64,000 nt of DNA from Chromatiales bacterium (GTDB lineage Bacteria; Pseudomonadota; Gammaproteobacteria; Thiohalomonadales; Thiohalomonadaceae). The position numbers were made by a program, and so were the translations under genes. This document shows, piece after piece, positions 5,854 to 37,869 of the stretch; within the stretch, counting starts at the first letter, position 1, and each line of letters begins with the position of its first letter. The stretch lies in assembly GCA_029879245.1 (NCBI GenBank), contig JAOUQQ010000001.1:1-64000 (forward strand), in the 5' to 3' direction. A model generated the notes under the pieces. The model saw nothing but the letters and a program-made list of their open reading frames with translations, was not told where the DNA came from and did no database searches.

Positions 5854-7329
5854 TTACGGCATATTTCTACCATTTAACCATAACTCTGCCGCACTACGGG
5901 TCGTATCGAGTATCACGGAGGGATAGAGACCGGTAACAAGAACGATCACCGCCAGCACCGCAATTAGCAGTAGTTCACGCCCACGAATATCCTGAGCAGC
6001 GAGGATCGCCTGGCTCCTCGCCACACCGTAAAAGACGCGTCGATAGTGAGCCAGAAGATAGCCTGCCCCCAGTATCAGGGCAAAGAGGGCGGCCAGTCCG
6101 GCACCGGTATGACTCTTAAGGGTAGCAATGATCAGCAGGAACTCCGCAATAAAACCGTTGGTACCGGGGATCCCCATACTCGCCAGGGCGAAAAGGAAGA
6201 AGAGGGCGGCCAGCAGCGGCATGGTAGTGGCAACCCCACCGAGGGTGATCACCTCATTGGTACCTATACGCTGGTGCAGCATGGCCGTTAGCAGCACCAG
6301 CCCCCCACTGATCACGGTGAAATTGAGCAGTGCGAAGAGCGCCCCCTGAATCCCCTCGATATTGAATGAGGCCAAACCTAACACCACTAGCCCCACGTGG
6401 CTCATGCTGGAGAAGGCGAGCATACGCCGCAGATTGGTCTGTACCAGGGCCATCAGTGCACCATAAAGGAGAGCGATCACCCCCAGCCCCGCCAGCAACC
6501 AGTGAAACTGCTGCGCCGCCTCCGGCGCGAGGGGGATGGCAAAGCGGATCAAACCGTAGACCCCCAGCTTGATCCCCAGCAGGATCGCCGTCAGCCCCAG
6601 CGGCCCCTCCATCGCCACCGTCGGCAGCCAGGTGTGTAGTGGGAAGAGCGCCGTCTTTACCGCAAATCCCAGCAGCAACAGCAGAAAGACGACCCCCTGC
6701 GGCTCCTGTCCCAGCGGTTCAGAAAGCAACCGCAGGTAGTCGAACACCAATCCGCCATCGGCGTGGTTGAAGGCGAGCAGGAGAAAACCGAACAGCAGGG
6801 GAACCCCACCGATCAGCATCTGCATAATGTATTTCGATGCGGCAAAGCGACGGTTGGGCCCGACCCCCCAGAGGCTGATGAGGAAGAAGCTCGGGATCAG
6901 TGAGAGCTCCCAGAAGAGGAAAAAGGCCATCGTGTCGAGGGCGGTGAAGATCCCCAGTGTCGCCGTCTCCAGCAGCAGTAACAGGATAAAATAGAGACGC
7001 GGCATGGTACGCACACTGTTCCACGAAATCACCACCACCCCGAGGAAGAGCAGCGTTGTCAGCGGCAGAAAGAGCAATGAGATACCATCAACACCCATCT
7101 GATAGTGGATATTTAGCGTCGGGATCCACACTGCGCTCTCCACAAACTGAAACTCTCCCACGCTGCTGTCGAAGGCCACAACCATGGCGACAGCGAGAGC
7201 CAGATCCAGCAGCGCCGCCCCCAGGGCCACCCAGCGTGCGAGGCGTACATCGAGCAACCAGATCAGAATCGCCGCCAGCGGCAGGCTGAGGAGCATCAGG
7301 CTGATATAGGGGAAAGTATGCTCAGTCAC
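5854..7329 (-). CDS. NuoM/NdhD-like proton-translocating subunit of the Dab cluster (distal)
   Basis: Polytopic membrane protein of the complex-I antiporter family (PF00361), 491 residues, about 14 hydrophobic segments. NuoM hallmarks are present: the TM5 glutamate in FWELSLIPSFF and the TM7 lysine in AVKTALFPLHTWLP. A third site usually occupied by lysine in NuoM reads NLRRMLAFSSMSH, with arginine. It starts with GTG at 7329, 7 bp after an AAGGGGG run and 12 bp after the preceding stop. It is the last gene of a five-gene cluster with dabA. Lack of nuoA, H, J or K nearby argues against a respiratory complex I operon; a role coupling ion flow to inorganic-carbon uptake is inferred. Confidence 0.85.
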   Translation of the reverse strand: MTEHTFPYISLMLLSLPLAAILIWLLDVRLARWVALGAALLDLALAVAMVVAFDSSVGEFQFVESAVWIPTLNIHYQMGVDGISLLFLPLTTLLFLGVVVISWNSVRTMPRLYFILLLLLETATLGIFTALDTMAFFLFWELSLIPSFFLISLWGVGPNRRFAASKYIMQMLIGGVPLLFGFLLLAFNHADGGLVFDYLRLLSEPLGQEPQGVVFLLLLLGFAVKTALFPLHTWLPTVAMEGPLGLTAILLGIKLGVYGLIRFAIPLAPEAAQQFHWLLAGLGVIALLYGALMALVQTNLRRMLAFSSMSHVGLVVLGLASFNIEGIQGALFALLNFTVISGGLVLLTAMLHQRIGTNEVITLGGVATTMPLLAALFFLFALASMGIPGTNGFIAEFLLIIATLKSHTGAGLAALFALILGAGYLLAHYRRVFYGVARSQAILAAQDIRGRELLLIAVLAVIVLVTGLYPSVILDTTRSAAELWLNGRNMP

Positions 7330-7341
7330 ACCACAGCCCCC

Positions 7342-8856
7342 TTAATGAACACGGGCATAGAACTCCCCCAGATTGACCAGTGACATATCGACCAGCTCCA
7401 GCAGTGGCTCAGAGTAGAAACCGGCACCCAGCAGGCAGAAGAGGATCGTCGACGCCAGCACCACCTCGGCACGATTAACACGCTCTATCTCCCGCATCCC
7501 CTCCGGTTTGGCGGCAAGAAAGGCGCGCTGGAAGGCCCACAACAGAAAACCGGCGGCTACCACGTTGCCCAGCGCCGCGGCGATGGTCACCAGCGCACCG
7601 TAGCGGTGCATCGACGCCTCCAGGATCAGGTGAGCGGCATCAAAACCGGGGGTACCCGGCATTCCAACAATGGAGAGACCGGCAACAAAGAAGGTGATGC
7701 CGATAAGTGGAATGGTTTCAAACAGACCACCCAGCTGATGCAGCAACGCAGTGCGGGTGCGGCGAAACACCATCCCGGTCATAAACAGCAGCCCCGCCCC
7801 GGCAAGGCCAAAATTTATCGACAGGATCAGCGCCCCCTGAAAGGCGAGTTTGCTAAGGCTGAACAAGCCGATTATCAGGATCCCCGAGTGGCTGATCACC
7901 GCAAAGGCGAGCAGGCGACGCAGATTGCTCTGGGTCAGCGCCAGCAGTGCCGCATAGAAGACCCCCGCCACGGCAAAGGCGATGATATAGATGTGCCACT
8001 GCATCACCGCCTCAGGGAGCAGCGGCAGCACGAAACGAAAGATACCGTAAATGCCGGTCTTGAGCCCGATGAGAAAGACCGGCGCCACCGCCACCGAGCC
8101 GTGCTCGGCGATCTTCGGTAACCAGCCGTGCAGCGGAAAGAGCGGCACACGCACCGCCATCCCGTAGAACAGCAGGAAAAAGATGATACTTTGGGTTGCT
8201 GCCGCCAGGGGTTGAGCCGCCAGGGCGTAGAGATTGAAACTCCACTCGCCATTGTTGGCATCGGCATAGTTCCAGCCCAGCATCAGGGTACCGGCGAAAA
8301 GTAGCAGCAGGCCGCTAGCCATGAACTGAACGAAGCGCATTACCGCCTCATCCTTGGCCGGTGAGGTCGACCACTTGTGCAGCAGATAACTGACAGGCAG
8401 AAGCTGTAGCGCGGTGACCACGACAAACCAGAGCAGATCCACCGTTACCACACTGGAGATAAGCGCCGCCTGTACGGCGAATACCGTTACCAGAAACAGT
8501 CCCTTGGGGGGGAAAGTGCGTACCTCGCCATAGAGCACCACCAGAAGGGTCAGCAGGGCGGTAAATATGACGAACAGTACACCAACGCCATCCACTGCCG
8601 CATGGTAGGCCAGCGGCCCCAGCAGTTGCAGTCTCTCCGCCAGCTGAAAGGCGGTGACACCATGATCCAGTGTCTGATAGAGCTCAAAGGCCAGCCACAG
8701 CTCAATCAGCGCCGCGATCATCGCAACGGGAAAGAGGAGACGATCCCGCTTGCGGATCAGCAGCAGTATTGCCATCGCCAGTAGCGGCAACAACTGAAGT
8801 AGCGCCAGGAGCGGAAGGTCGCTCTGTGTACTCCAGTGGATCTCCTGCATCAACAT
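7342..8856 (-). CDS. NuoN/NuoM-like membrane subunit with altered proton-channel residues
   Basis: 504-residue polytopic protein of the complex-I antiporter family. The scaffold motif PLFPLHGWLPK is clear, but two residues that carry protons in active relatives are replaced: the TM5 glutamate position reads VVTALQLLP (alanine) and the TM7 lysine position reads AVRVPLFPL (arginine). The start used is ATG 8856, 11 bp after the stop of the NuoL-like gene, preceded by GGCGGG; a second ATG at 8850 follows a TTG. It lies between the NuoL-like and the terminal NuoM-like genes. It may be a structural or regulatory subunit rather than a pump. Paralogue class (N versus M) is not certain. Confidence 0.8.
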   Translation of the reverse strand: MLMQEIHWSTQSDLPLLALLQLLPLLAMAILLLIRKRDRLLFPVAMIAALIELWLAFELYQTLDHGVTAFQLAERLQLLGPLAYHAAVDGVGVLFVIFTALLTLLVVLYGEVRTFPPKGLFLVTVFAVQAALISSVVTVDLLWFVVVTALQLLPVSYLLHKWSTSPAKDEAVMRFVQFMASGLLLLFAGTLMLGWNYADANNGEWSFNLYALAAQPLAAATQSIIFFLLFYGMAVRVPLFPLHGWLPKIAEHGSVAVAPVFLIGLKTGIYGIFRFVLPLLPEAVMQWHIYIIAFAVAGVFYAALLALTQSNLRRLLAFAVISHSGILIIGLFSLSKLAFQGALILSINFGLAGAGLLFMTGMVFRRTRTALLHQLGGLFETIPLIGITFFVAGLSIVGMPGTPGFDAAHLILEASMHRYGALVTIAAALGNVVAAGFLLWAFQRAFLAAKPEGMREIERVNRAEVVLASTILFCLLGAGFYSEPLLELVDMSLVNLGEFYARVH

Positions 8857-8867
8857 CTTCTGCCCGC

Positions 8868-10364
8868 CTAAATAATGACCACCAGGGTCGCCATGATCAT
8901 CAGCCACAGGTAGCGGGGTCGCTCCAGCAACTTCTCAATCGCCTGCGCCTGGCTGCCGATACGGCTGATAAGCCCAATTAGCCCCTCACCGCCGCTGCGC
9001 AGGATCAGATTCTCCTCCAGCCACTCCAGTCGTATCGCCAGCCACTCCATGGCGCGACCGGCAACACCACGACCGGTTCCGATCTCGCTGTGACTCTGCA
9101 CATGTCCGACCACACGATTGACCACCGCGCTATCGAAGTGCTCCACCTCTCGGGCCAGTGACTCGGTGGGGCGCAACAACAGCGCGTCACTCACATCATC
9201 AAGCCAGAAGCGTTGCAGGCTGGCGTGGTAGAGCCAGCGCTGCCTGCGCAACCAGGCCGCCACGGCCCTGGGCGGCTTTTCACTCTGCACCAGGATCGAG
9301 GGGGCGCTGAGAAACTGCAGGGCACGCCAGCTGGCATGGGCCATCAGGTGCAGCGCCGCCACCTCATACCAGCCAAGACCGATAGTGATAAACATCAGCC
9401 CCACCTGTGCAGTGGTGGCAAAGATCAGGCTCGACTTCACATCCGACTGCACCTGAGCCCCCAACCAGCCATAGAGGGTAGAGAGCAGACCGATAATGAT
9501 GATAAGCGGCGATAGCGCTGGCACCTGTTCCAGCAGTGGCGCCAGGCGGAGCAGCAGGTAGACCCCTGCATGCACCATTAACGAGCCGTAGAAGATCGCC
9601 GATGAGGGGGTCGGCCCCTCCAGTGCCCGTCCTATCCAGGGTGCAAAGGGGAACTGCGCCGATTTGGCCAGGGCCGCAATAAGAAAGGCACCCGCCAGCA
9701 GACCGGCACCCAGCCCATCAAGTCGGGTTACACCCTGCAACAGATCCGGCCACTCCACCCCGCCAAACCAGGTGATGGTAAGGAACAGGGCGAGGATAAA
9801 GGCGGCGTCACCAACGCGGTTGGTAATAAAGGCTCGAGTCGCACTGGCGGTGGCTGTGGGGCGATCAAAGAGGTAGGCGATAAGCAGATAGGAGCTTACC
9901 CCCGCCAGCTCCCAGCCGATAAACATCAGCGCCGCATTGCCGGCGCTGACGATCAACAGCATCGCCCCACTAAAGAGCGACATCACCATAAAGAAGCGCT
10001 GAAAGCCTGCCTCTCGATGCATATAGTTGACCGAGAATCGCAACGTAAGGAAGGCGATGAGTGCCACCAGGGTGGTCATCGCCAGCCCCAGAGTGTCGAG
10101 GGTGAAGCTGATGTTAAGTACAAAACTGCCCACTGCCAGCCACTCCCCCACCAGTAGCTGACCCGGTGCCGTGCCATCAACTAACGCCATCACATCGACA
10201 GCGAGAATGATCAACAGTGACATTCCCGAGGCAAACAGGGCCAGGTGGCTGGTCTGTCTCTCCCCCACCTCACCACGATTGCCACCAAAGGCGTAACCGA
10301 TGGCGATCCAGAGTGCCGCCAGCAGTGGCAACAGCGGGATCAGGGGAATTAGCTTAAGAGGCAC
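8868..10364 (-). CDS. dabB: DabB-like NuoL-family proton/sodium-translocating subunit
   Basis: NuoL/MrpA-type membrane protein (498 residues) matching the position and size of DabB, the ion-translocating partner of DabA in DAB bicarbonate-accumulation complexes. The TM5 glutamate is present in FIGWELAGVSSY, and lysines are present in ALAKSAQFPFAPW and in QSDVKSSLIFAT. The best start is GTG 10364: AGGGGG sits 6 bp upstream and the gene overlaps the dabA stop by 11 bp; a TTG at 10385 would lie before this Shine-Dalgarno. A hydrophilic region at about 370-470 precedes a final transmembrane helix. It is expected to use the ion gradient to make DabA-catalysed CO2 hydration unidirectional. Confidence 0.85.
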   Translation of the reverse strand: MPLKLIPLIPLLPLLAALWIAIGYAFGGNRGEVGERQTSHLALFASGMSLLIILAVDVMALVDGTAPGQLLVGEWLAVGSFVLNISFTLDTLGLAMTTLVALIAFLTLRFSVNYMHREAGFQRFFMVMSLFSGAMLLIVSAGNAALMFIGWELAGVSSYLLIAYLFDRPTATASATRAFITNRVGDAAFILALFLTITWFGGVEWPDLLQGVTRLDGLGAGLLAGAFLIAALAKSAQFPFAPWIGRALEGPTPSSAIFYGSLMVHAGVYLLLRLAPLLEQVPALSPLIIIIGLLSTLYGWLGAQVQSDVKSSLIFATTAQVGLMFITIGLGWYEVAALHLMAHASWRALQFLSAPSILVQSEKPPRAVAAWLRRQRWLYHASLQRFWLDDVSDALLLRPTESLAREVEHFDSAVVNRVVGHVQSHSEIGTGRGVAGRAMEWLAIRLEWLEENLILRSGGEGLIGLISRIGSQAQAIEKLLERPRYLWLMIMATLVVII

Positions 10365-13300
10365 ATTCCACCCCCTGCTGTGCAATCAGGCTCATCGGCA
10401 GCGGCTGACGATGGCCGGTGTACCAGTCGGCGGAACGCCTTACGACCGGTAACTCATTTAGCTCACCCTGCCACTCCACCCACCCCCTGTCGGGGATAAA
10501 TCGGTCGATACGTGACGTGTCAGGGTTCTTGGCGGCAACGATAAGCCAGCCATTGCCAATCAACTCCTGCAGCGCTGGCTGGCGCATGTAGATCTCGGTC
10601 AACAGCTCGCACTTCGCCTCCACCACTACCAGTAGGCGCATCGCCTCGTGGATCTCGATCATCTGTCGCGGCAGACCGGTACGCAGGTCGTCACTGGCCC
10701 CGTGCATCACACCGAACAGACCATTGACGTTATGGGTCACCTTGGAGCCGCAGCCGTAACCCTCGTTATTCACCGTAGAGAAGTAGTACTCCAGATTGAT
10801 CCCCGCCCCCACTGGGCCGTTGGCTAGCAACAGGCGTTCAATCACCTTGCCGTCGATGTCAGTAGTGGGGTCGTAGGAGATAAGAAAGGCGCGGCGGTCG
10901 AAGAAGGCACCACGTGTAGCGGCACGGCGGCCGATAAAGGCAAAGCCGTTGGTGGCGTGACCCAGCTCAGGTCGCGCCTGACTAAAGTCCATCGAGCGGC
11001 CGATGCTGTGGCGATAGGCACGCTCCAGCCCCAGCTTTTCGGTATCAGGTGCCGATGCAAAGCGGCGTGCCCGCTCGTGGGCCGAGTGGCGTACCGCCTG
11101 AGCTAACGTTGCCTGCAACCGTTCCAGATCCCCCTGGTGGCTCGCTGGCACCTTGTCCAGGTCGTACCAGTGGATCTGCTCATCGCAGGTATTGTGCTCG
11201 GCGCCGATAAACCAGACATCCTCTTCAATCGTGATCCCCCGATCGCGCAGTAGCGCACGCACGGCGGGGCGATTGGCAAAGGCGGCAAAGATACGGGCAT
11301 TGGCGCCGCTGTGACGCCCCGAACAGGCACCACAGTCGTAAGCGGCCAGATGGGGATTGTTCTGGCTCATAGAGCCGTGACCGGTGATCACCACCAGGCG
11401 CGAGAACGCCTGCAACATACCATTATTCTTCAAAAAGGCCTCACAGCGATCCGCCTGCTCCCCATCACTAAAACCAGACTGCGGGTCGCTCGGTGTTGCA
11501 TCACTGCGTTGCTGCTCGGCGCTAAAGATAACATCGGTCACCACACGCTCTTTGTCGAAACGACGGCGCAGCCCATCAAGCAATGTGCCCGTACGGTAGG
11601 GGGCAAACAGTTTACCCGCCAGCAGAAATAAACTGACCGGGGCGGCCAGCGCCATCAGCGGTAGTGAGATAACAGGGTTGAGGCGGGTCGACTGTAATAA
11701 TTTCTGCCGCCAGTTGAGACGTTGTCTGCGACGCCGCAGGTGCAGCTCAGAGAGCGCTTCCTGCCCCTGTGCGGGTACCTCACGGGTCTCGTGGGTTGGC
11801 ACTGCAACCACCGGGCAGAGGGTGATCGGTTTTTCACTATCGAGTGGTTTCCAGTACTGAAAGATATTGAAGTGGGCGGCGGCGCCCAGGGTCTCGATGG
11901 ACGGGTCCAACTCCTCCAGGTGGCGGCGAATCGACTCTTCACGGTCGTCCATGCAGAAGATCAGCTGCGCCGAGGGGTGTCCCGCCTCACCACCACGCGC
12001 CGCCCAGGGGCCACGGCCGTGGTTCTGGGTCAGGGCATTGTAGACCTGCTCATGGTAGTGTCGCTCGTAGGCCTGCAGCCAGAGGAACCCGCTGCTCTCA
12101 TCATCCATATCGAGGGCAGCAAAACAGACCTCCAGTTGCTCATCGCGCAACCAGCTCACCTCGTCGGCACAGAGTCCCAGATGCTGTGCCAGCAGAAAGA
12201 GGCGCCAGCCGCTCCTTAACACAGTGTGACCGCTAAGGGTGTCAGAGGCGGGACTGCGCTTCCAGATCCAGATCCGATCTGCCAGTTGCTGCCACGCCTC
12301 GTACTCATCACTCCCGGTATAACTTTCACACAGGCGCTGTGCCGCGTTGACCAGATACTCTGGCAGGTGCTGATTGAACAGCGTGTAACGTACATAGAGC
12401 TCGGAGCGTCGACGGCGAAAATACCAGCGCAGCATTTCAAGACTCGCCTCGATACGCCACAGCCGGCGACAGAGACGCTGGGCATAGATGCGCTCCAGCA
12501 CCAGTCTGACGGCGAGGTACTCCATCATCTCGACCCTGTCGGGTGTCACCCCCTCATAGCCGGGGTTGTTGTGACGCCACAGGAACATACCGGACCACCC
12601 CGGTAACTCCAGCGCCAGTCGTTCGATGTAGTGCGCCCAGCGCGCCTCAGGCAGACCGAGACGCTGTAGCTCATCTACCACTACATCAAGTGCCTCATCG
12701 GCCAGCAACTCCAGCTCGTCGTGCCACTCGGGCAGGTCGTCGAAGAGCCACCCCAGCTCATCCTTGGCGCTACCGCGCCAGAACGCGAGGAAGCCTCGTT
12801 GCCGCTCCTCGCCATGCCAGGAGGCGAGCCCCTGGTCAAGGTAGGCACCCATCAGACGGATCAGGGCGGGACGAAACTCCTGCAGAATATCGTGTCCGGT
12901 CAACTGCTGAAGTAGAGCACGCAGCGTCAGGGGATTTCCGACCTGTTCCAGCAACTCATCCAGCAATTTGCCCCCCGCCCTGCGCATCAGGGTATGGCGC
13001 AGTGGCAGATCGCCGGCGACCTGGTGTCCCTCCACCTCACCCTCATCGCCAAAAAGCTGCTCGTTCAGCTCGGGACTGAGATCGGTCAGCTCCTCCGGGT
13101 GGAGCAGAAAGTGGTGCAGACCGAGGCGCTCAAGGGTCGCCTCCCAAAGTCTGTTAATCGCCTCAGGCTCGGCGCAGCGGCTCTTTTCTAGAATGCGTCG
13201 CCGGCTCTCATATTCAATATCCGTATAGAAACGGCTCAGGACCCCCTGCTCCTCAACAAGCCAGGTGAGCTGGCAGTTGGTCACCGGGTTGATCGCCTGA

Positions 13301-13656
13301 CTCATCGCTGCGATGGTGATATCGATCCGGGTAAGAGTGAGTCCATCCACCTCGATACACGGGCTATCACTAGCAAAACGCCCGTCATCGGCCAGTACCG
13401 CCGTCAGGTCGTCACGACTGATGCGCCCCTCCCTGTAGTAACGGCGGTAGTCGTCACCACTCTGATAACCATAAGAGCCATTAACCTCCCGCGCCGCCTT
13501 CAGGGCATCGGGAAACTTGAGGTGCTGAAAACCGTGCAGGGTATTGTGGTGGACAAAATCGCGGATCGGCGCCTGCGCCGGCAGCACATGCTCAAAATGC
13601 TCGATCGCCTGGCGCAGGGCCTCACGTACATCCGGCGAGGCGTTCTGTTCATTCAT
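10354..13656 (-). CDS. dabA: DabA (DUF2309), carbonic-anhydrase-like subunit of the inorganic carbon pump
   Basis: DabA is a large cytoplasmic zinc protein that hydrates CO2 to bicarbonate while bound to a NuoL-like membrane partner. This copy has 1100 residues from ATG 13656 (GGGGGA lies upstream, inside the end of the preceding gene). The beta-carbonic-anhydrase-like zinc ligands can be read: C568 and D570 in FCMDDRE, H760 in TGHGS, and C775 in DCGAC. The C-to-D and H-to-C spacings (2 and 15) equal those published for the Halothiobacillus DabA site (C351, D353, H524, C539). It is longer than minimal DabA proteins (about 800-1050). It is the second gene of the cluster, overlapping dabB by 11 bp. 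Confidence 0.93.
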   Translation of the reverse strand: MNEQNASPDVREALRQAIEHFEHVLPAQAPIRDFVHHNTLHGFQHLKFPDALKAAREVNGSYGYQSGDDYRRYYREGRISRDDLTAVLADDGRFASDSPCIEVDGLTLTRIDITIAAMSQAINPVTNCQLTWLVEEQGVLSRFYTDIEYESRRRILEKSRCAEPEAINRLWEATLERLGLHHFLLHPEELTDLSPELNEQLFGDEGEVEGHQVAGDLPLRHTLMRRAGGKLLDELLEQVGNPLTLRALLQQLTGHDILQEFRPALIRLMGAYLDQGLASWHGEERQRGFLAFWRGSAKDELGWLFDDLPEWHDELELLADEALDVVVDELQRLGLPEARWAHYIERLALELPGWSGMFLWRHNNPGYEGVTPDRVEMMEYLAVRLVLERIYAQRLCRRLWRIEASLEMLRWYFRRRRSELYVRYTLFNQHLPEYLVNAAQRLCESYTGSDEYEAWQQLADRIWIWKRSPASDTLSGHTVLRSGWRLFLLAQHLGLCADEVSWLRDEQLEVCFAALDMDDESSGFLWLQAYERHYHEQVYNALTQNHGRGPWAARGGEAGHPSAQLIFCMDDREESIRRHLEELDPSIETLGAAAHFNIFQYWKPLDSEKPITLCPVVAVPTHETREVPAQGQEALSELHLRRRRQRLNWRQKLLQSTRLNPVISLPLMALAAPVSLFLLAGKLFAPYRTGTLLDGLRRRFDKERVVTDVIFSAEQQRSDATPSDPQSGFSDGEQADRCEAFLKNNGMLQAFSRLVVITGHGSMSQNNPHLAAYDCGACSGRHSGANARIFAAFANRPAVRALLRDRGITIEEDVWFIGAEHNTCDEQIHWYDLDKVPASHQGDLERLQATLAQAVRHSAHERARRFASAPDTEKLGLERAYRHSIGRSMDFSQARPELGHATNGFAFIGRRAATRGAFFDRRAFLISYDPTTDIDGKVIERLLLANGPVGAGINLEYYFSTVNNEGYGCGSKVTHNVNGLFGVMHGASDDLRTGLPRQMIEIHEAMRLLVVVEAKCELLTEIYMRQPALQELIGNGWLIVAAKNPDTSRIDRFIPDRGWVEWQGELNELPVVRRSADWYTGHRQPLPMSLIAQQGVECAS

Positions 13657-13660
13657 GCGA

Positions 13661-15130
13661 CTATCCCCCGATACCGGCAAAAAGGTGACCCAGCTGAGCC
13701 ACCGACGCACCCATCAGTTGCAGGGCCGGGGCCGGGGCAAAACCGAGCAGCAGGATCCCCAGGCTTAGCACCGAGGCGGCCATCAACTCCCCGCGTTCCA
13801 GATCGCGAATACCGCGCATCTCCTGGCGCACCGGTCCGGTAAAGAGACGGGTGAGGGTGCGTACCGCATAGGCGGCACTGATTAACACACCCAGGCTCAC
13901 CCCAATCACCAGCCAGCCCCAGCGCTCGAAACCACCGATCAGGGCGTGCAGTTCGGCAACAAAACCGGCGGTACCCGGCATACCGATAGCGGCAACGAAG
14001 GCGAGCGAGGTGAAAAAGGCAAAGCGTGGCGTTATACGCACCAGCGAGCTGTAGTCGTTGATATCGCGGGTATGGGTGCGCTCATAGAGCAGTCCGATCA
14101 ACAGGAACAGCGCCGCAGCTACCAGTCCGTGGGCCACCATCTGCATTACCGCCCCGGTGATGCCGTGAACATTGAGCGCGGCTATTCCCAGCAATACCAC
14201 CCCCATGTGGCTTACTGATGAGTAGGCGACCATCCGCTTCAGGTCACTCTGGCGCCACGCCAGCATCCCACCATAAATGATGGCGATCAGGGCAAGGGCC
14301 AGCAGTACCCCCTGCATCGCCATCGCCGCCTCGGGTAACATGGCGGTGGCACGCAATAACCCGTAAGAGCCCATCTTCAGCAGGACCCCGGAGAGCAGAA
14401 TAGAGACCGGTGACGGCGCCTCCACATGGGCCAGTGGCAACCAGCCGTGGAGCGGAAAGAGCGGCATCTTTACCCCAAAGCCGATCAGAAAACCGAGGAA
14501 TATCAAAAGCTGCGTCTCGGCCGGTAGCCCGTGTGCCCCGGCCAGAATATCGGCAAAGGCGAAGCTGTGGGAGCCCACCTCGTCAAACACCAGCAGCAAC
14601 GCCAGCAGCATAAAGACCGAACCGCCCATGGTGTAGAGGACAAAGTTGAGCGCCGCCCCCTGGCGGCCACTACCACCCCAGCCGTTGATCAGAAAGAAGA
14701 GCGGTATCAGGGTCAGCTCCCAGAAGACATAGAAGAGCACCCAGTCCTGCGCCATAAAGACCCCCAGCATTGCCGACTCGAGTGTCAGCAGCAGCGCATA
14801 GTAGCCTTTGGCATTCTCCGTGATGGAGGCGGAGGCGAGGACCGCGATAAGAGAGAGCAGGGTCGCCAGCAGCACCATCGGTAGTGAGATGCCATCGACT
14901 CCCAGGGCAAAGCTGGTACCCAGGCGTCTATTCCAGTCGACCCCCACATCCAGTTGAATCGCTGCACTACCGCTATCAAACGAGAGCAGCAGCATCCACG
15001 AGAGGAGTAGTGCGATCACCGATGCCGCAATCGCCACACCACGTAGCAACACGCGGTTGTCTCCGGGCAGCAGCGCGATCAGGATGGCACCCGCAAAGGG
15101 TGATAGCAGCAGTAGCGTCAGGGAGTCCAT
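13661..15130 (-). CDS. NuoM/NdhD-like proton-translocating subunit, first gene of the Dab cluster
   Basis: 489-residue polytopic membrane protein. All proton-path residues expected of NuoM are present: glutamate in FWELTLIPLFF, lysine in GVKMPLFPLHGWLP and lysine in SDLKRMVAYSSVSH. It is therefore probably an active ion translocator. The ATG at 15130 follows a weak purine run (CCAGAAG). Its stop is 4 bp before the dabA start, so the two are co-translated. Being the promoter-proximal gene ahead of dabA argues that it is a genuine part of the carbon pump rather than a stray nuo gene. Confidence 0.87.
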   Translation of the reverse strand: MDSLTLLLLSPFAGAILIALLPGDNRVLLRGVAIAASVIALLLSWMLLLSFDSGSAAIQLDVGVDWNRRLGTSFALGVDGISLPMVLLATLLSLIAVLASASITENAKGYYALLLTLESAMLGVFMAQDWVLFYVFWELTLIPLFFLINGWGGSGRQGAALNFVLYTMGGSVFMLLALLLVFDEVGSHSFAFADILAGAHGLPAETQLLIFLGFLIGFGVKMPLFPLHGWLPLAHVEAPSPVSILLSGVLLKMGSYGLLRATAMLPEAAMAMQGVLLALALIAIIYGGMLAWRQSDLKRMVAYSSVSHMGVVLLGIAALNVHGITGAVMQMVAHGLVAAALFLLIGLLYERTHTRDINDYSSLVRITPRFAFFTSLAFVAAIGMPGTAGFVAELHALIGGFERWGWLVIGVSLGVLISAAYAVRTLTRLFTGPVRQEMRGIRDLERGELMAASVLSLGILLLGFAPAPALQLMGASVAQLGHLFAGIGG

Positions 15131-18501: not shown

Positions 18502-19404
18502 TCACTTCGCCTTCTCTTCGAGCTTCTTGGCGCGGATGATCTGACCATCCAGTGCCGCCTCGGAGGCAGACTTGCCGTAGGCCAGGGCGATGAGCTGCGA
18601 GTAGTAGACTACCGGCATCTCGAACTTGGTCTTGAAGGTTTTGTTGATGTCGCGCTGGTAGGACTCAACGTTCATCTGGCAGAGCTGGCAGGGGGTGACG
18701 ATCATGTCGGCGCCGCCGTCGTAGGCGGCCTCGATGATATCCTTGACCAGGGCCTGGCCCTTCTGCGGCTCGGAGAACATCAGTGCGCCCGAGCAGCAGG
18801 AGACCTTCTTCTCGTAGCGATTGAGCGCCTCGGCGCCGCACGCCTCGATCATCTGATCCAGATACTGCGGATTCTCGAACGACTCACCGGCGATACCGAA
18901 AGGGCGGTTGGTCTGACAGCCGACGTAGCCGGCGATCTTTACACCCTCCAGCGGATTGGTGACCCCCTTGGCGATGGCATCGATACCGATGTCCTCCATC
19001 AGCACCTCAACCATGTGACGGGTCTTCGGCATCTGGTTCGGCTCGACCTTGAGGCCGATCTCACCGAGGGCGGCGTTGATCCCCTCACGTACGTGGGCGT
19101 TCTCGTTGACGCGGTCCTCCGCCTCGCGGGTGGCGATCCAGCAGGCGGCACAGGGGGCGACGATATCTTTATCGCCCTGCTGCTGTTTGGACAGCGCGAT
19201 ATTGCGTGCACTCAGTGAGAGGCGCGGGATCTCGCTACCGCCGGCATAACCGATAGAGGCGCCGCAGCAGTTCCAGTCGTCGATCTCGTTCAGTTGAATA
19301 TCCAGCGCATCGCACATGGCGTTGGCGGAACGCATAAAGTTATCCGCGGAGGCCTTGCTCTGTGAGGAGCAGCCGGGATAGAAGGAATACTCTTTCTTGG
19401 CCAT
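18502..19404 (-). CDS. hdrB: HdrB-like CCG-domain subunit of the Qmo complex
   Basis: HdrB-type proteins carry two cysteine-rich CCG domains that hold non-cubane [4Fe-4S] clusters. The 300-residue sequence shows both: YPGCSS near 10, WNCCGAS near 45 and CAAC near 84; then GYVGCQ near 158, SCCSGA near 198 and PCQLC in the last third. It is the last gene of qmoA-qmoB-hdrC-hdrB, 12 bp after hdrC. In bacteria whose Qmo lacks QmoC, HdrC and HdrB replace it, so the likely role is passing electrons between QmoAB/AprBA and another carrier. Cytoplasmic, no membrane segment. ATG with upstream GGAGAGAG. Confidence 0.88.
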   Translation of the reverse strand: MAKKEYSFYPGCSSQSKASADNFMRSANAMCDALDIQLNEIDDWNCCGASIGYAGGSEIPRLSLSARNIALSKQQQGDKDIVAPCAACWIATREAEDRVNENAHVREGINAALGEIGLKVEPNQMPKTRHMVEVLMEDIGIDAIAKGVTNPLEGVKIAGYVGCQTNRPFGIAGESFENPQYLDQMIEACGAEALNRYEKKVSCCSGALMFSEPQKGQALVKDIIEAAYDGGADMIVTPCQLCQMNVESYQRDINKTFKTKFEMPVVYYSQLIALAYGKSASEAALDGQIIRAKKLEEKAK

Positions 19405-19416
19405 TTAATCTCTCTC

Positions 19417-20043
19417 CTACTTGCCAAACTTGGCAACATGTTCAGCTTCGAACTCGGCAGCCTTCGCCAGCATCTTGGCGATGCCGGAACGGTCTTTACA
19501 CTTGTGACCACCGAAGTACTCCATCGGGTTCATGCGCTTGGTCTTCATCATCGCAAGACCGAGCTCCTTACCCGCCAGGGCATTCTTGATCCCCTGGACG
19601 AAACCGTTCATGAAGTAGAGACCGACGCCAATCTTCAACTCGTTAACACGGCCGTTCTCGACGATCGACTTCCAGAAGATGTCGCCGAACTTGACGGTGG
19701 GCTGCTCCTTGGGGGCCAGGCCCATGCGCTTACCGTAGCTGGCAAGGCCGTGCATGATATGGGTGATCGGCAGTCCGCGCGGGCAGCGGGCAATACAGTT
19801 ATAGCAGGAGGTACACATCCACATCGAGCTGCTGCTCAGGACTTCATCACGCTTGTTGGCGCGAATCATCATGAACAGCTCCTGCGGTGGGTGGTCCCAG
19901 TTGTTCTCCATCGGGCAGGAGCCGGAACAGACGCCACACTGCATACACATCTTGACCCAATGACCTTCCTCGACGTTGGCCTCGACCTCCTGGAGGAAGT
20001 TGCTGCGATATTTTTCGATCATCGCCTGATTCATCTCGCTCAT
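19417..20043 (-). CDS. hdrC: HdrC-like ferredoxin-type subunit of the Qmo complex
   Basis: 208-residue iron-sulfur protein with two complete [4Fe-4S] motifs, CMQCGVCSGSCP near residues 33-44 and CTSCYNCIARCP near 77-88, the pattern of HdrC. HdrC wires the flavoprotein subunits to the CCG-domain HdrB. It is soluble, unlike QmoC, which fuses an HdrC-like domain to a membrane cytochrome b; no such membrane anchor exists here. It lies 12 bp downstream of qmoB and is followed at 12 bp by hdrB. ATG at 20043, with GGAGAC upstream. Confidence 0.9.
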   Translation of the reverse strand: MSEMNQAMIEKYRSNFLQEVEANVEEGHWVKMCMQCGVCSGSCPMENNWDHPPQELFMMIRANKRDEVLSSSSMWMCTSCYNCIARCPRGLPITHIMHGLASYGKRMGLAPKEQPTVKFGDIFWKSIVENGRVNELKIGVGLYFMNGFVQGIKNALAGKELGLAMMKTKRMNPMEYFGGHKCKDRSGIAKMLAKAAEFEAEHVAKFGK

Positions 20044-20055
20044 GGTGATGTCTCC

Positions 20056-22287
20056 TTAGAACTTGAATGGGCTCATGCCGATTTCGCCGATGGTCTTCTC
20101 CATATCGTTGATGATCTGGGGAATCTTATCGACATCGGTGATGGCAACTTCGTAGGTCCCTACACGCTCTTTCTCGAGGTTGAGGGTCTTCAGGGTTTCG
20201 TCAACCTTGCTCATACGGATATGGGCCATCTCGGAACCTTTGACGAAGTGACACTGGTAGTTGTCACCCTTCTGACAGCCGAGCAGGATGATACCGTCGT
20301 AGCCGCTGTTGAGGGCATCGGTGATCCAGATGACGTTGACCGAGCCGAGGCAGCGTACCGGTACCACGCGGGCAAAGGCCGAGTACTCGGTGCGATTCAT
20401 ACCGGCCATGTCGAGCGCCGGGTAGGCATCGTTCTCGCAGGCCAGTACCAGGATACGCGGCTTCTCGTCGAACTCATCCGGGATGTCGACCGCCTTCAGC
20501 TGCTGTCCGACGGTGTCGATGGAGTAGTTCTCGAAGGAGATGACGCGCACCGGGCAGGCACCCATACAGGTACCGCAGCGGCGGCAGCGACCCTCGTTGT
20601 ACTGCGGGTAGCCCTGCTCGTCCTCGTTGATCGCGCCGAAGGGGCACTCCACGGTGCAACGCTTGCACTGGGTACAGCCATCCTTGCGGAAGCTGGGGAA
20701 GGAGAGGTCACCGGAGCGCGGGTGGGCGGCACGGCCGAGGGCCGAGTTCTCACACGCCTGGATCGCCTTGAGGACTGCACCGGTGGCATCCTCGACCGCC
20801 TGCTGGTCGTCCATTGGACGACGTACGGGGCCCGCGGCATAAATGCCGGTACGACGGGTCTCGTAGGGGAAGCAGATGAAGTGGCTGTCGTTAAAGCCGT
20901 GCTTCAGGTGCGGCAGGTCAGTGCCCTGGCGGTAGTTGAGGTTGAGGATCGGCTGGGGCTGAACCTCCAGCTCCGCCTCAATCTTGGCCACCAGCGCATC
21001 ATCCTTATCCTCTTTTGCCTGAGCCAGCTCAATGGGCAGGTAGGGGTTGGGACCGGAGTTGGGGATCTGTCCGGTGGCCAGTACCACGATGTCGGCCTTG
21101 ATGGTGCTCTCTTCGGCCAGGATCTTGTCGGTGTAGCCTACCTCAAGGGCGCCACCGGCGGCCTTGACGCTGGCCACCTCGCCCTTGGAGAAGGCTACAC
21201 CCGCCTCCTGACCGGAGCGGTAGAAATCCTCGCCGGTGGCACCGGGGGTGCGCAGGTCGTCGAAGATGACGGTGGCGTCGCCGCCGGCCGCCTTCACGTA
21301 GTGGGCCTGCTTGATCGAGGTCATGCAGCAGTGGCCGGAGCAGTAGGGCAGATGGCCGGGCTTCTCGCTGCGCTGACCGGCGCACTGGACGAAGACCACG
21401 TTCCTGGCATCGGAGCCGTCGGACTTCTTGATCGCGCCGTTGTTGGCCTTGACCATCGCCTCGAACTGGCCCTGGTCCATCACGTCCGGGTTCTCCGGGG
21501 AGAACTCGGGCAGGTTGGCCATGTCGTAGGGCTTGGAGCCGGTAGCCTGGACGATGGCACCGACGGTGAGGCTCTTGCCATCACTCAGCTCCACGCTGAA
21601 GCGGCCCGGGGCACCATCGGTCTTGGTAATGGTGGTATTGAGGTGGACGGTGATCCTGGCGTTGTCGTTGACCGCGGCGATCAGCTGATCGATGTCGTTA
21701 TCGACCGGGCCCTGCAGGCCGTTCTTGTGCGGAATACGCTTGTATTCGCGGGCGCTGCTGCCGCCCAGCTCGCCGCTGGCGTTGACCAGCTCGACACTGT
21801 ATCCGGTCTTGGCGCCCTCGATGGTGGCGGTAAGGCCCGCCAGGCCGCCACCGACCACCAGCAGCGAGCGGGTCAGCCCCTGTTCGCCGGAGGACGCCGG
21901 GACCTTGGAGAACTTCGCCTCGGCACAGCCCATCCGCACATAGTCGTCGGCCATCTCCTGGGTGGTCTCACGCGCCTCATCGGTGTCGGGACGGACCCAG
22001 ATGACACCCTCGCGGATGTTGGTGCGATTGATGTGCACGCCCTCGAAGCTGAAGGCCTCGGTCTTGGCACGACGCGAGCAGCCGACCACCACCACGTGGG
22101 TCACACCCTCGTTGGTAATGTCATCCTGGATCATCTTCACGCCCTCGGCGTTACAGAGCATCTCATGGTCTTTACCGATGGCCGCCTTGCCGTCGCGCTT
22201 GGCGGTGTTGACGAGCTGACCGACATCGAGGCGATCCTCGATACCGCAGCCCTTACAGATGTAAGCTCCGATCTTCATGTCAGCCAC
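20056..22287 (-). CDS. qmoB: QmoB, HdrA-like flavoprotein with MvhD-type C-terminus
   Basis: QmoB is the large flavin and Fe-S subunit of the quinone-interacting oxidoreductase that partners APS reductase. The 743-residue protein shows an N-terminal HdrA-like region (ICKGCGIEDRLDVGQL), a Rossmann FAD motif (VVGGGLAGLTATIEGA) near 140, and twin [4Fe-4S] motifs CTQCKRCTVECP and CRRCGTCMGACP at about 538-585. It ends in an MvhD/FrhD-like domain from about 610 that holds GCQKGDNYQCHF. It starts at GTG 22287, with GGAGG 8 bp upstream; an ATG three codons later is poorly spaced. In sulfur oxidisers it is thought to accept electrons from AprBA. Confidence 0.92.
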   Translation of the reverse strand: MADMKIGAYICKGCGIEDRLDVGQLVNTAKRDGKAAIGKDHEMLCNAEGVKMIQDDITNEGVTHVVVVGCSRRAKTEAFSFEGVHINRTNIREGVIWVRPDTDEARETTQEMADDYVRMGCAEAKFSKVPASSGEQGLTRSLLVVGGGLAGLTATIEGAKTGYSVELVNASGELGGSSAREYKRIPHKNGLQGPVDNDIDQLIAAVNDNARITVHLNTTITKTDGAPGRFSVELSDGKSLTVGAIVQATGSKPYDMANLPEFSPENPDVMDQGQFEAMVKANNGAIKKSDGSDARNVVFVQCAGQRSEKPGHLPYCSGHCCMTSIKQAHYVKAAGGDATVIFDDLRTPGATGEDFYRSGQEAGVAFSKGEVASVKAAGGALEVGYTDKILAEESTIKADIVVLATGQIPNSGPNPYLPIELAQAKEDKDDALVAKIEAELEVQPQPILNLNYRQGTDLPHLKHGFNDSHFICFPYETRRTGIYAAGPVRRPMDDQQAVEDATGAVLKAIQACENSALGRAAHPRSGDLSFPSFRKDGCTQCKRCTVECPFGAINEDEQGYPQYNEGRCRRCGTCMGACPVRVISFENYSIDTVGQQLKAVDIPDEFDEKPRILVLACENDAYPALDMAGMNRTEYSAFARVVPVRCLGSVNVIWITDALNSGYDGIILLGCQKGDNYQCHFVKGSEMAHIRMSKVDETLKTLNLEKERVGTYEVAITDVDKIPQIINDMEKTIGEIGMSPFKF

Positions 22288-22290
22288 GTC

Positions 22291-23571
22291 TTAACCCTCC
22301 GTTCCTGCAACCTGGTTGACCACCTGGATGGCACGCAGTGCCGCGGCGGTCGCATTCTGTGCCGCACGGTTTACGTCCAGCGCATCGGACGAGCAGCCGG
22401 CACCGAAGATACCGCCGTTGGACTCATCCAGATCGATGAAGCCGTGCTCGTTGATCACGGTACCCTCGGGGAAAATACCGGTGGGGACGGTGGATTGCAT
22501 ACCGGTGGCGAGGACCACCAGGTCGTGCTCGTTGGCGTAGCGGTTGTAACCCTCGGTGTCGACGCCGCGCAGTACCACGTTGCCGTCACTGCCGCCGACG
22601 ATGTTGGCCACCTTGGACTTGACGAAGGAGACGTTGGGGTCCTGCTTCACGCGCTGGTGGAAGTCGTCGATACGATCGATGGCGCGGATGTCGATGTAGT
22701 AGATGGTCGACTTGCACTCATCACCCAGTTGCTCGGCCACGTAGGTGGTCTGCTTCAGGGAGGCCATGCAGCAGATGCGCGAGCAGTGCTTGAGGTGGTT
22801 GCGGTCACGCGAACCGGCGCACTGGATAAAGGCGATGTTCTTCGGCGTGGTGCCGTCGGCGCGCTGGATCTTGCCACCGGTCGGCCCCTTGGGGTCCATC
22901 ATGCGCTCGAACTCGACGTTGGTGATGACGTTGTCGTAGCGGTCGTAACCGTAGGGCTGAATCTTCGCCGCATCGTAGGGCTTCCAGCCGGTGGCCCAGA
23001 TCACGGAGCCGACGGTGACGGAGAGGTTCTCCTCCTGCATCTCGAGGTCGACCGCGCCGACCTTGCACGCCGCCTTTGCCTTGTCGGCGTCGGCGGTGCC
23101 GATGATGCTGGGGTCGATCACATAGCGCTGCGGGTAGGCCATGTTGTGGGGCAGGTAGGCCGCCTTGGTCTTCTTCATATTGTAGTTGTGGGCGTCATCC
23201 ACCTCGGCCTCGACGGCGTTGGCGCAGTCGCCACAGGCGGTGCAGTTCTCGTTGACGTAGCGCGGGGCAACCTTCAGGTCGACGGAGTAGTTACCCGCCT
23301 CACCGCTGATCCCGGCCACCTCGGTCATGGTCATCAGGCGGATATTCTTGTTCGCCTTCAGACGACGGTACTGGATCTCCAGGCCACAGGTGGGGAAGCA
23401 GAGCTTCGGAAAGTATTTATACAGCTGGCCAACACGGCCGCCGACGGTGGGGGCTTTTTCGATCAGCAGGACCTGCTTACCGCACTCGGCTGCTTCCAGC
23501 GCTGCGGTGAGGCCGCTGATACCGCCACCTACGACCATAATGGTCTCGTTGGTTGCGACTACCTCAGACAT
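22291..23571 (-). CDS. qmoA: QmoA, HdrA-like FAD subunit of the quinone-interacting oxidoreductase
   Basis: First gene of the operon, 426 residues. The N-terminal dinucleotide fold VVGGGISGLTAALEAAECG (about 13-31) binds FAD. The CFPTCGLE segment and CTACGDC near 115 give Fe-S cysteines typical of QmoA/HdrA. A second flavin-associated motif, VVLATGMQSTVP, lies near 350. Start ATG 23571 has a strong GGAGGTAATCA leader. Its stop is 3 bp from the qmoB GTG. Together with AprBA the complex reversibly couples sulfite/APS chemistry to the electron-transport chain; in this sulfur-oxidising context the inferred direction is oxidative. Confidence 0.93.
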   Translation of the reverse strand: MSEVVATNETIMVVGGGISGLTAALEAAECGKQVLLIEKAPTVGGRVGQLYKYFPKLCFPTCGLEIQYRRLKANKNIRLMTMTEVAGISGEAGNYSVDLKVAPRYVNENCTACGDCANAVEAEVDDAHNYNMKKTKAAYLPHNMAYPQRYVIDPSIIGTADADKAKAACKVGAVDLEMQEENLSVTVGSVIWATGWKPYDAAKIQPYGYDRYDNVITNVEFERMMDPKGPTGGKIQRADGTTPKNIAFIQCAGSRDRNHLKHCSRICCMASLKQTTYVAEQLGDECKSTIYYIDIRAIDRIDDFHQRVKQDPNVSFVKSKVANIVGGSDGNVVLRGVDTEGYNRYANEHDLVVLATGMQSTVPTGIFPEGTVINEHGFIDLDESNGGIFGAGCSSDALDVNRAAQNATAAALRAIQVVNQVAGTEG

Positions 23572-35145: not shown

Positions 35146-37137
35146 TTAGTGGGCAGCAGGCTTGAACAGCTTGGACTTGTCCACCAAATCTACGTGGGCG
35201 CGCTTGAACACGGTCCACTTCTTGGTGGTCTTGTCATAGATGGAGTTAACGAAGCAGTGCCAGTTCTCCTCATCGATGAAGTTCTTGTCCATGCGGTAGT
35301 AGAAGCCCGGGTAACGGGACTCCTCACGGAACTGGATGTGCTTCATGTGGGCTTCCGCGGTCAGGATGCGGTGGTAGTTCTCCCACGCGCGGAGCAGCTC
35401 GTGCAGGTCTTTTGCACGCATCTTCTCGGCGTCTTCCTTCAGCATCTCCAGCTTCTCTTCCGCAACCTTGAGCATGTGCTCGTTGGTCTTGTAGTAGGTG
35501 GCGACACCGGCTACGTACTCGTCCATGATCTTCTGCAGACGGAACTGCAGCATCTTGGGAGTAATGTAGTGCGGGTTAACGTCGATCGCGGTGGTGTAGT
35601 CCTTGTGCTCCAGGAAGGTACGAACCGGCTGGTAGATCGCATTCACCAGGTCCTCGACAGAGGTGTCGAGCTCCGGGGTGTAATCCTTGTTGTCCAGGCA
35701 GTACTTGACCATCGCCTTGGCAGCCATACGACCCTCGGCGTGTGAGCCTGAGGAGAACTTGTGACCGGATGCGCCCACGCCGTCACCGGCGGTGAACAGA
35801 CCCTTAACGGTGGTCATACCACGGTAGCCCCAGTTCCAGCCTGAGGGCAGGTGGGACGGTACGCCGGCCATGGTCTCCTCGGTGGGAGCGCCCACGTCGG
35901 TCGGGCCAGAGGTCCAGATACCGCAGCAACCGGAGTGTGAACCCAGCAGATAGGGCTCGGTGGGCATCAGCTCGGAGTTCTTCTTCTCGGGCTCGATGTT
36001 CTCACCAACCCAGATACCGCACTGGCCAACGCACATGTCGAGGAAGTCTTCCCAGGCCTCGGCTTCGAGGTGCTTGACTTCGCGCGGCGACAGGGTCTCA
36101 CGCAGCTTGCCAAGGGCGGTAACGGTGTCCATCCAGATCGGACCACGGCCTTCCTGCATCTCTTTGAGCATCAGGTGGTTACGCAGACAGGAGGCGGGAA
36201 CAGCGGCCTGGCCGTAGGGCGGGTAATCATCCAGCAGGGCCTTGTTCTTCACCATGTAGACTTCGCCAGTGGCGTTGGTGGCCTGGGATTTGAACAGCAG
36301 GAACCATGCACCTACCGGGCCGTAACCGTCCTTGAAGCGGGCGGGAACGAAGCGGTTTTCCATCAGGGTCAGCTCTGCACCGGCCTCGGCGGCCATGGTG
36401 TAGGTAGAGCCGGCGTTCCAAACGGGGTACCAGGCGCGGCCGGTGCCCTCACCAACGGAACGGGGACGGAAGATGTTTACACAACCACCGGCGGCCAGCA
36501 GGATAGCCTTTGCCTTGTAGACGAACAGCTTGTGGTCGCGGGTAGAGAAGCCCACGGCGCCGGCGATGCGGCTCGGGTCGTTCTTGTCGTTAACCAGCTT
36601 AACGATGAAGACGCGCTCTGCAATACGCTCGGTACCCAGGGCCTTCTTGGCGGCCTCGGCAACGATCCACTTGTAGGATTCACCGTTGATCATGATCTGC
36701 CACTTACCTGAACGTACCGGCTTGCCGCCGTCTTTCAGGGGGGTCAGGCCCTGTGAACCGTCGTGACGCTCACCGTTCTCGTCGGTCTTCCAGATCGGCA
36801 GGCCCCACTCCTCGAACAGGTGTACGGACTCGTCAACGTGGCGGCCGAGGTCGTAAGCAAGGTCATCACGGGTGATACCCATCAGGTCGTTGGAGACCAT
36901 GCGGGCGTAATCAGCCGGATCCTGCTCAGGACCGATGTAGGTGTTGATCGCAGAGAGACCCTGTGCAACCGCACCGGAGCGGTCCATAGCGGCCTTGTCG
37001 ACCAGCTTGATGCGCAGGTCGGTGCCCTTGGCCCACTGCATGATTTCATAGGCAGCACCACAGTTGGCCATACCACCACCGATCATAAGGATGTCTACTT
37101 CTTCTTCGATGACATCCGGATTTCCAAATTCAGCCAT
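35146..37137 (-). CDS. aprA: Adenylylsulfate (APS) reductase alpha subunit AprA
   Basis: AprA is the FAD subunit that interconverts sulfite plus AMP with APS in the cytoplasm. The 663-residue length is typical. The N-terminal FAD fold LMIGGGMANCGAAYE (about 17-31) is followed by DRSGAVAQGLSAINTYIG, characteristic of AprA, and the FAD site AAGGCVNIFRPRS near 235. It lies 39 bp downstream of aprB with leader GAGGAATTTACA. In this oxidative context (Soe, Sat and a sulfur-globule protein nearby) it should form APS from sulfite, passing electrons through AprB to QmoAB-HdrCB. No aprM gene is seen in the window. Confidence 0.97.
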   Translation of the reverse strand: MAEFGNPDVIEEEVDILMIGGGMANCGAAYEIMQWAKGTDLRIKLVDKAAMDRSGAVAQGLSAINTYIGPEQDPADYARMVSNDLMGITRDDLAYDLGRHVDESVHLFEEWGLPIWKTDENGERHDGSQGLTPLKDGGKPVRSGKWQIMINGESYKWIVAEAAKKALGTERIAERVFIVKLVNDKNDPSRIAGAVGFSTRDHKLFVYKAKAILLAAGGCVNIFRPRSVGEGTGRAWYPVWNAGSTYTMAAEAGAELTLMENRFVPARFKDGYGPVGAWFLLFKSQATNATGEVYMVKNKALLDDYPPYGQAAVPASCLRNHLMLKEMQEGRGPIWMDTVTALGKLRETLSPREVKHLEAEAWEDFLDMCVGQCGIWVGENIEPEKKNSELMPTEPYLLGSHSGCCGIWTSGPTDVGAPTEETMAGVPSHLPSGWNWGYRGMTTVKGLFTAGDGVGASGHKFSSGSHAEGRMAAKAMVKYCLDNKDYTPELDTSVEDLVNAIYQPVRTFLEHKDYTTAIDVNPHYITPKMLQFRLQKIMDEYVAGVATYYKTNEHMLKVAEEKLEMLKEDAEKMRAKDLHELLRAWENYHRILTAEAHMKHIQFREESRYPGFYYRMDKNFIDEENWHCFVNSIYDKTTKKWTVFKRAHVDLVDKSKLFKPAAH

Positions 37138-37176
37138 TGTAAATTCCTCAGTTAATTCTTCGTTAGCCCAGGGCGA

Positions 37177-37650: not shown

Positions 37651-37669
37651 TGCTAATGCTCCTTTATGG

Positions 37670-37687
37670 TTTTAACTGCAGTTAAAA
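37670..37687. repeat. Perfect 18-bp palindrome in the aprB leader
   Basis: TTTTAACTG and CAGTTAAAA are exact complements with no spacer. The element lies 19-37 bp before the aprB ATG, just upstream of the AAAGGAG ribosome-binding site, where a bound repressor or an mRNA hairpin could control expression. Confidence 0.6.
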
Positions 37688-37869
37688 ACTCGAACTCCAC
37701 CACCGCGTGGCGGCAAAATCGGGTTATCTGGTTTTATACCCTGTGCCACGCCACCTCTTTTGTTTGAGGAAGGCGCTATTGGACAGGCCCTAAAAATTTT
37801 TCGAGCGCCTACCTTAGCCACTTACGGAATCAAGTCCAAACAGAACTATCTTTTGGCTCCATAGAAGTG

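Follow-up and report, generated by a model that had tools for sequence, protein, structure and literature searches.

A five-gene unit of a long-class DabA and four complex-I-like membrane subunits, a candidate redox-free CO2-hydrating machine of Proteobacteria

Background

DAB2 (DabA2-DabB2; PDB 9rd0) and the other short DabAB pairs, including MpsAB, combine a PF10070 protein that carries a zinc site with a NuoL-like partner. In these pairs DabA is short, the gene order is usually B-then-A, a single PF00361 gene is present, the finger of DabA carries Glu444, and DabB keeps transmembrane helices (TM) 12-15 and is devoid of the TM5 glutamate (PMC13144422). Loss of Glu444 abolishes the activity of DAB2, Leu658 stands in for the transition-state glutamine of beta-carbonic anhydrases, and the loss of the TM5 glutamate from DabB was tied by the authors to a permanently 'open' state (PMC13144422). 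DAB1 of Halothiobacillus neapolitanus (DabA1, hneap_0908, DabB1) has its active site at C462/D464 of DabA1 and hneap_0908 as an interstitial PF00361 gene, and rescues carbonic-anhydrase-free Escherichia coli (PMC7714395). The subject of this report is a five-gene unit in the genome of a Chromatiales bacterium (assembly GCA_029879245.1), in which dabA is accompanied by four PF00361 genes, here called M1, L, MN and M2. It spans positions 5854-15130 of the 64,000-nucleotide stretch that was analysed (the window; contig JAOUQQ010000001.1, positions 1 to 64,000), in the order M1-DabA-L-MN-M2 and entirely on the minus strand.

The unit has the PF10070 zinc site and the NuoL-like partner in common with DAB2, and departs from it in having A669 instead of Glu444, four PF00361 genes, L downstream of dabA, and an L that is without TM12-15 and retains the TM5 glutamate (E159). 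With DAB1 it shares a long DabA, the A-first order and more than one PF00361 protein (PMC7714395, PMC13144422), and a long DabA followed by two PF00361 genes (L and MN) is the DAB1-type layout. The two differ in M1 and M2, which DAB1 does not have, so that it has no complete NuoM-type pump. The preliminary description of this DNA took DAB complexes to consist of DabA and one DabB, which is not fully right, since DAB1 has the further PF00361 gene (PMC7714395) and operons of dabA with NuoM genes were reported in 2017 (PMC5700660).

Complex I, including its 2M type, resembles the unit in its NuoM-type pumps with an intact E/K/K/E set and in its NuoL-type subunit with a lateral helix. This helix is a brace along the neighbouring pumps in complex I. 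The unit differs in having neither NuoA/H/J/K/N nor a redox arm, in the loss of the C-terminal half of NuoL, and in the carbonic-anhydrase-like subunit found instead. The cyanobacterial NDH-1MS/MS' complexes are similar in idea, with a carbonic-anhydrase-like subunit on a complex-I-like array for vectorial CO2 hydration. NDH-1MS is redox-driven and works with CupA/B; the unit differs in having no redox part and a PF10070 subunit. In 2M-type complex I a 26-aa insertion in the lateral helix accompanies an added pump, a lengthening with added subunits that the unit has in common with it (PMC9040806). The COGNAT study (Biol Direct 2017) described NuoM genes in one clade ('clade C') of ybcC (dabA) operons and tied subunit number to ion number (PMC5700660). 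The gene association in these ybcC-nuoL-nuoM operons is that of the unit; as read here, the study differs from the present analysis in that it assigns no carbon function, contains no pump residue analysis and supposes outward pumping (PMC5700660).

Organization and recurrence of the unit

The five genes probably encode a single vectorial carbonic anhydrase driven by the proton motive force, in which a redox-free complex-I-like arm would carry DabA; assembly into one complex is suggested by the gene, residue and structure comparisons given below. Coordinates and Pfam assignments agree with the tight five-gene unit with four PF00361 proteins of the preliminary description (E-values of 2e-39 to 2e-70 for M1, L, MN and M2), and DabA scores 754.7 bits with PF10070 against a curated cut-off of 25. 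Start sites are present that reproduce the spacings reported there (4 bp, an 11-bp overlap, 11 bp and 12 bp). No nuoA, H, J, K or peripheral-arm gene adjoins the unit, as had also been noted, and the nuoLMN-type genes of complex I are located elsewhere in the genome (contig C187). The best NCBIfam model for M1, MN and M2 is NDH_I_M (TIGR01972); the Mrp models score far under their cut-offs.

A genome scan with DabA gave a similarity-selected set of 80 loci, all proteobacterial, from sulfur oxidisers and symbionts, Thiobacillus, Nitrosospira, Nitrosomonas, methanotrophs and Magnetococcales. The order M1-DabA-L-MN-M2 occurs in essentially every locus of this set that is long enough. Intact copies of all five genes are present in 75 loci, so that the arrangement is not due to chance. 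Cultured carriers include Methylomonas and Nitrosospira strains. Since the set is biased by similarity, an even sample of 398 Pseudomonadota genomes was also used, in which 67 dabA neighbourhoods were read; its long-class genomes represent about a dozen families, and many of them are Magnetococcia-like. The neighbourhoods fall into two classes, with 32 short and 35 long DabAs. Each of the 32 short DabAs (about 800-860 aa) is paired with a single PF00361 protein whose gene lies upstream (in one case as a fused open reading frame, ORF). The full set accompanies 31 of the 35 long DabAs (once with MN split in two frames); the remaining four loci comprise one cut by a contig end, a divergent three-gene locus (L185) and two with dabA alone (L144 and L160). 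Orthologues of MN, the most diverged subunit, split off cleanly (>270 bits vs about 230 for M2 and <200 for NuoM). Such orthologues are present in 36/398 genomes, all of them with a long DabA (36/36), and the sole genome without MN among the 37/398 with a long DabA is the divergent G316.

Both loci with dabA alone belong to one genus (g151). There, dabA adjoins genes for a cheW-response regulator, a cyclophilin and a DNA ligase, and M1-M2-L-MN are found together on another contig (L221 and L222; contigs C139/C207). Joint retention despite physical unlinking points to a functional set. That the genes only happen to adjoin a respiratory or Mrp operon is rejected on the grounds of this unlinked retention and of the association of MN with long DabA. 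The view of the preliminary description that the extra subunits belong with DabA is borne out by the same association and by the clades of their own, apart from NuoL, NuoM and NuoN, that they form. Across the 75 complete loci the five proteins show correlated pairwise distances (Spearman 0.60-0.85), a weak indication that is uncorrected for vertical inheritance.

Variants of the unit were observed at two other loci. In a Thiothrix metagenome-assembled genome (L048, 8439-23111) the order is M1-DabA-L-DabA-L-MN-M2, a partial duplication with two long DabAs and two L genes. In Nitrosomonas mobilis (L079, 18790-23259) a second, short-type DabA and a NuoL-like gene lie directly downstream of the five-gene unit.

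The long DabA class

The zinc site of the window DabA is C568/D570/R572/H760/C775. The ligands C568, D570, H760 and C775 stand where they had been read before, aligned to C351, D353, H524 and C539 of DabA2 (PDB 9rd0), and zinc ligands are kept in 87-88 of 88 long DabAs. The protein matches DabA2 of DAB2 (9rd0_A) at 3.8e-60; a Foldseek search of its model against the PDB gave no significant match in a library copy apparently without 9rd0. The added length of the long class is mostly found ahead of the zinc site and at the C-terminal end.

The finger is a helical hairpin (H633-659/H661-684) in the AlphaFold2 (AF2) model of the window DabA. At the position of Glu444 of DAB2 all short DabAs have Glu (32/32) and no long one does (0/88); the window protein has A669 in uncharged surroundings, and the finger tip is uncharged in the long class. 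The published DAB2 coupling path is thus not transferable to long DabAs, and the last coupling step must differ. Two active-site positions also separate the classes: that of Leu658 is His in 87/88 long DabAs (the other has a gap; H900 in the window) and Leu in 32/32 short ones, and that of Ser356 is Glu in 88/88 long DabAs (E573 in the window).

The replacement of Leu658 by His900 and of Ser356 by Glu573 alters the active site, and would be compatible with a reversed direction, in which the DabA reaction drives ions outward and the unit is a primary pump fed by an exergonic cytoplasmic reaction. Such a direction was suggested for ybcC/nuoM operons before the function of DabA was known (COGNAT 2017; PMC5700660). 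It is considered very improbable, given that E. coli obtains inorganic carbon through DAB1 and through DAB2, in the second case in dependence on the proton motive force (PMC7714395, PMC13144422), and that genes near the units are carbon-related.

The membrane subunits

Residues were compared with E144, K234, K265, H322 and E407 of E. coli NuoM. All are kept in M1 (E138, K221, K252, H308 and E393; 106/106 across the class) and in M2 (E141, K225, K254, H311 and E396; 81/81). MN of the window, numbered from the ORF start at 8907, has A166 for the TM5 Glu, R253 for the TM7 Lys and A425 for the TM12 charge, and keeps K283 in TM8. Across the 92 sequences of the MN class, TM7 has Arg and TM8 has Lys throughout (92/92 each), and the positions of E144 in TM5 and E407 in TM12 are small or hydrophobic. 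By these residues, two of the four PF00361 subunits, M1 and M2, look like complete pumps. The earlier expectation of four ion channels per DabA is not supported by the residues, as MN is degenerate, L is without TM12-15 and the full residue set is found only in M1 and M2.

In FastTree and IQ-TREE phylogenies M1, MN, M2, L, short DabB, NuoL, NuoM and NuoN form one group each. MN and M2 are sisters (Shimodaira-Hasegawa-like approximate likelihood ratio test, SH-aLRT, 97), M1 is sister to NuoM (SH-aLRT 85), and L is a long branch near NuoL and DabB. Of the gene types first proposed, NuoM-like for M1 and M2 and NuoL-like for L hold; MN, called NuoN/M-like, is placed by the tree as NuoM-type and sister to M2, which rules out NuoN.

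The AF2 model of L (predicted local distance difference test score, pLDDT, 88.8) has TM1-11, followed by a lateral helix and one terminal TM; TM12-15 are absent. Foldseek aligned it with E. coli NuoL (7p7e_L, 6.3e-22) over about 360 columns at a root-mean-square deviation of 1.8-2.2 A, and HHalign, run without realignment, aligned its C-terminus to the NuoL lateral helix (HL; P 8e-6). From the start of the helix to the C-terminus there are 87-91 residues in NuoL of complex I, 142 in the L class (median) and 121 in the window L; the excess, about 32 residues for the window L and about 53 at the median, contains a variable loop, which prevents an exact subunit count. The longer helix fits a brace across a larger number of subunits than complex I has. 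The TM5 Glu of L is kept in 102/103 sequences, the TM7 Lys is kept, and there is no TM12. The R/D/K ion-pair residues are kept in 40/40, a Tyr replaces one His of the DAB2 proton path and an Arg replaces a Lys, both in 40/40; short DabBs are without the TM5 Glu.

Three proteins are encoded by the divergent locus L185 (110-5716): a long DabA, an L-like protein of 440 aa in which the lateral helix is truncated and the terminal TM missing, and a degenerate PF00361 protein of 433 aa whose losses resemble those of MN. As elsewhere in the long class, its DabA is without the finger Glu and has Glu at the position of S356 and His at that of L658. M1 and M2 are missing, and the genome also carries a short DabAB pair (L127). 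By gene order and active-site position L185 probably corresponds to DAB1, for which it serves here as a stand-in. The layout of L185 and its likeness to DAB1 suggest that DabA-L-MN is a core, to which M1 and M2 would be complete pumps added.

The same locus bears on another explanation, in which DabA and L, perhaps together with MN, make up an ordinary DAB pump. M1 and M2, though in the same operon, would then be a distinct antiporter derived from NuoM, or remnants of complex I, and might for instance balance H+ or Na+ during CO2 uptake. The DAB1-like L185 has neither gene, DAB1 is functional in E. coli without them (PMC7714395), and M1 groups as sister to NuoM. This explanation is nevertheless thought rather unlikely: MN occurs without long DabA in 0/398 genomes, the four antiporter genes stay together even where dabA has moved off, and the lateral helix of L is lengthened rather than lost, with the inter-subunit ion pairs kept.

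Host genome and gene neighbourhoods

The host assembly is 98% complete, with 2.7 Mb in 197 contigs. It contains a single dabA and four PF00361 genes outside the unit, three of which are the nuoL/M/N-type set on C187. RuBisCO genes and one beta-carbonic anhydrase gene are also present. A carboxysome partner is ruled out, as the host genome has no carboxysome shell (bacterial microcompartment, BMC) gene. A RuBisCO-linked accessory is ruled out as well, since only two of the sampled long-DabA genomes (G000 and G219) matched RuBisCO. The flanking genes in the window (M48 peptidase, LemA, cyclase, HD-GYP and Hdr) are not conserved at other loci and are excluded as parts of the unit. All matches in a plasmid search with M1 were <60% in identity, and those listed were from rhizobial plasmids. 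The features of the unit are listed in Table 1.

Table 1. Features of the five-gene unit, with positions in the window
Feature	Position (strand)	Description	Evidence
M1	13661..15130 (-)	489 aa NuoM-like antiporter subunit	PF00361 1.8e-70; own clade nearest NuoM
Long DabA	10354..13656 (-), ATG	1100 aa, beta-carbonic-anhydrase-like	PF10070 1.6e-226
L	8868..10364 (-), GTG; ORF open to 10385	NuoL-like (DabB-like)	PF00361/PF00662
MN	7342..8856 (-), ATG; ORF open to 8907	degenerate NuoM-like	PF00361
M2	5854..7329 (-)	NuoM-like	PF00361 2e-60
DabA finger tip	11605..11679 (-)	residues 660-684	
DabA H900	10957..10959 (-)	at place of DAB2 Leu658	
L lateral-helix (HL) segment and terminal TM	8871..9233 (-)	121 residues	HHalign, length comparison

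Gene families that recur around other units include SulP/STAS transporters, LCIB-like, CsoSCA-like and beta-carbonic anhydrases, and one SbtA homologue. The recurrent neighbours, carbonic anhydrases and transporters of bicarbonate type, support a role in inorganic carbon. Some of the genes near other units encode Na+/H+ antiporters or SulP proteins, which would also suit a complex run by sodium, or one that moves HCO3- with Na+ in the manner of an MpsAB-like symport, instead of proton-driven CO2 hydration. MpsAB has been argued to use Na+ (discussed in PMC13144422), and PF00361 proteins are part of Mrp Na+/H+ antiporters. With the NuoM residue set of M1 and M2 and their grouping with NuoM, the conserved zinc hydratase site, and the sodium independence of DAB2 (PMC13144422), sodium coupling is judged improbable.

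Other genes of the window were observed as follows. At 18502-23571 (-) genes for HdrB- and HdrC-like proteins are followed by a gene for a QmoB-like protein (743 aa), which has FAD and FlpD/MvhD domains, and one for a QmoA-like protein (426 aa); together they encode a Qmo complex that includes Hdr-type subunits. The region 35146-44219 contains aprA/aprB-like genes, a 965-aa molybdopterin oxidoreductase gene and an ATP sulfurylase gene, which make the host a probable dissimilatory sulfur oxidiser. The protein encoded at 50122-51858 (578 aa) has a histone-deacetylase-family domain besides a weak N-terminal acetyltransferase match, and there is a 1278-aa FAD-oxidase/Fe-S/CCG fusion with DUF3683 and DUF3400 at 59959-63795.

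Proposed mechanism

In the proposed model of one proton-driven complex, array order, direction, ion, stoichiometry and coupling would be as follows. DabA, seated on L, would take up CO2 at its zinc site, and CO2 + H2O would be converted to HCO3- in the cytoplasm, energised by the proton motive force. The C-terminal half-channel of L (TM12-15) is gone, as if the hydrophobic finger of DabA had taken its place; the ion pairs of L that face the neighbouring pump are kept, and the elongated lateral helix could brace the M subunits. DabA-L-MN would form the DAB1-like core, in which MN, a degraded pump, may act as a spacer or coupling element, and M1 and M2 would be the two complete proton pumps added to it. 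Protons would pass inward through M1 and M2, and possibly L, at about two per turnover, or up to three if L conducts. This inward flow would drive or gate hydration, by electrostatic coupling along the array to L and on to the finger, whereby the buried zinc site would be opened or activated for one-way CO2 hydration. Purified DAB2 has no carbonic anhydrase activity in the absence of a membrane potential.

Several points weigh against the model. The finger Glu that DAB2 requires is missing from all 88 long DabAs, and the changes S356->E573 and L658->H900 could mean a different chemistry. M1 and M2 might pump independently. RuBisCO is missing in most sampled long-DabA genomes, in a sample rich in Magnetococcia, so that the need for CO2 accumulation in them is not the textbook one. 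The equation of L185 with DAB1 is made solely from gene order and active-site position. The stronger proposal, that the unit is a separate class of CO2-hydrating machine driven by the proton motive force, is held to be evenly balanced; here, DabA would be driven by a half-NuoL and three NuoM-type subunits, of which two are complete pumps and one is degenerate. This DabA would depart from DAB2 both in its active site, with His in place of Leu658 and Glu in place of Ser356, and in its coupling, where the finger Glu is absent.

Implications

NuoM genes in dabA operons (COGNAT 2017; PMC5700660) and two PF00361 subunits in DAB1 (PMC7714395) are already known. Judged on the open-access literature, and as far as shown here, the new elements are the split into long and short DabAs, the obligate association including unlinked genomes, the count of two pumps among four subunits, L as a half-NuoL whose lateral helix is long, and a lost finger Glu together with class-specific active-site residues. 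Calvin-cycle genomes have a raised PF00361 copy number (PMC7895386), part of which the five-gene unit may explain.

Structure and mechanism exist solely for the two-gene DAB form. The five-gene unit, widespread though little studied, replaces or accompanies it in many chemolithoautotrophs, magnetotactic bacteria, nitrifiers and methanotrophs. Because the long class has no finger Glu, the proton-coupling model of DAB2 is not general. With the unit it can be tested how a complex-I-type array is coupled to chemistry in the absence of a redox reaction, and whether added pumps alter the H+/CO2 ratio. If it is a separate class, energy would be passed along a pump array as in complex I, and CO2 uptake would be possible at a low proton motive force or to a higher HCO3- level.

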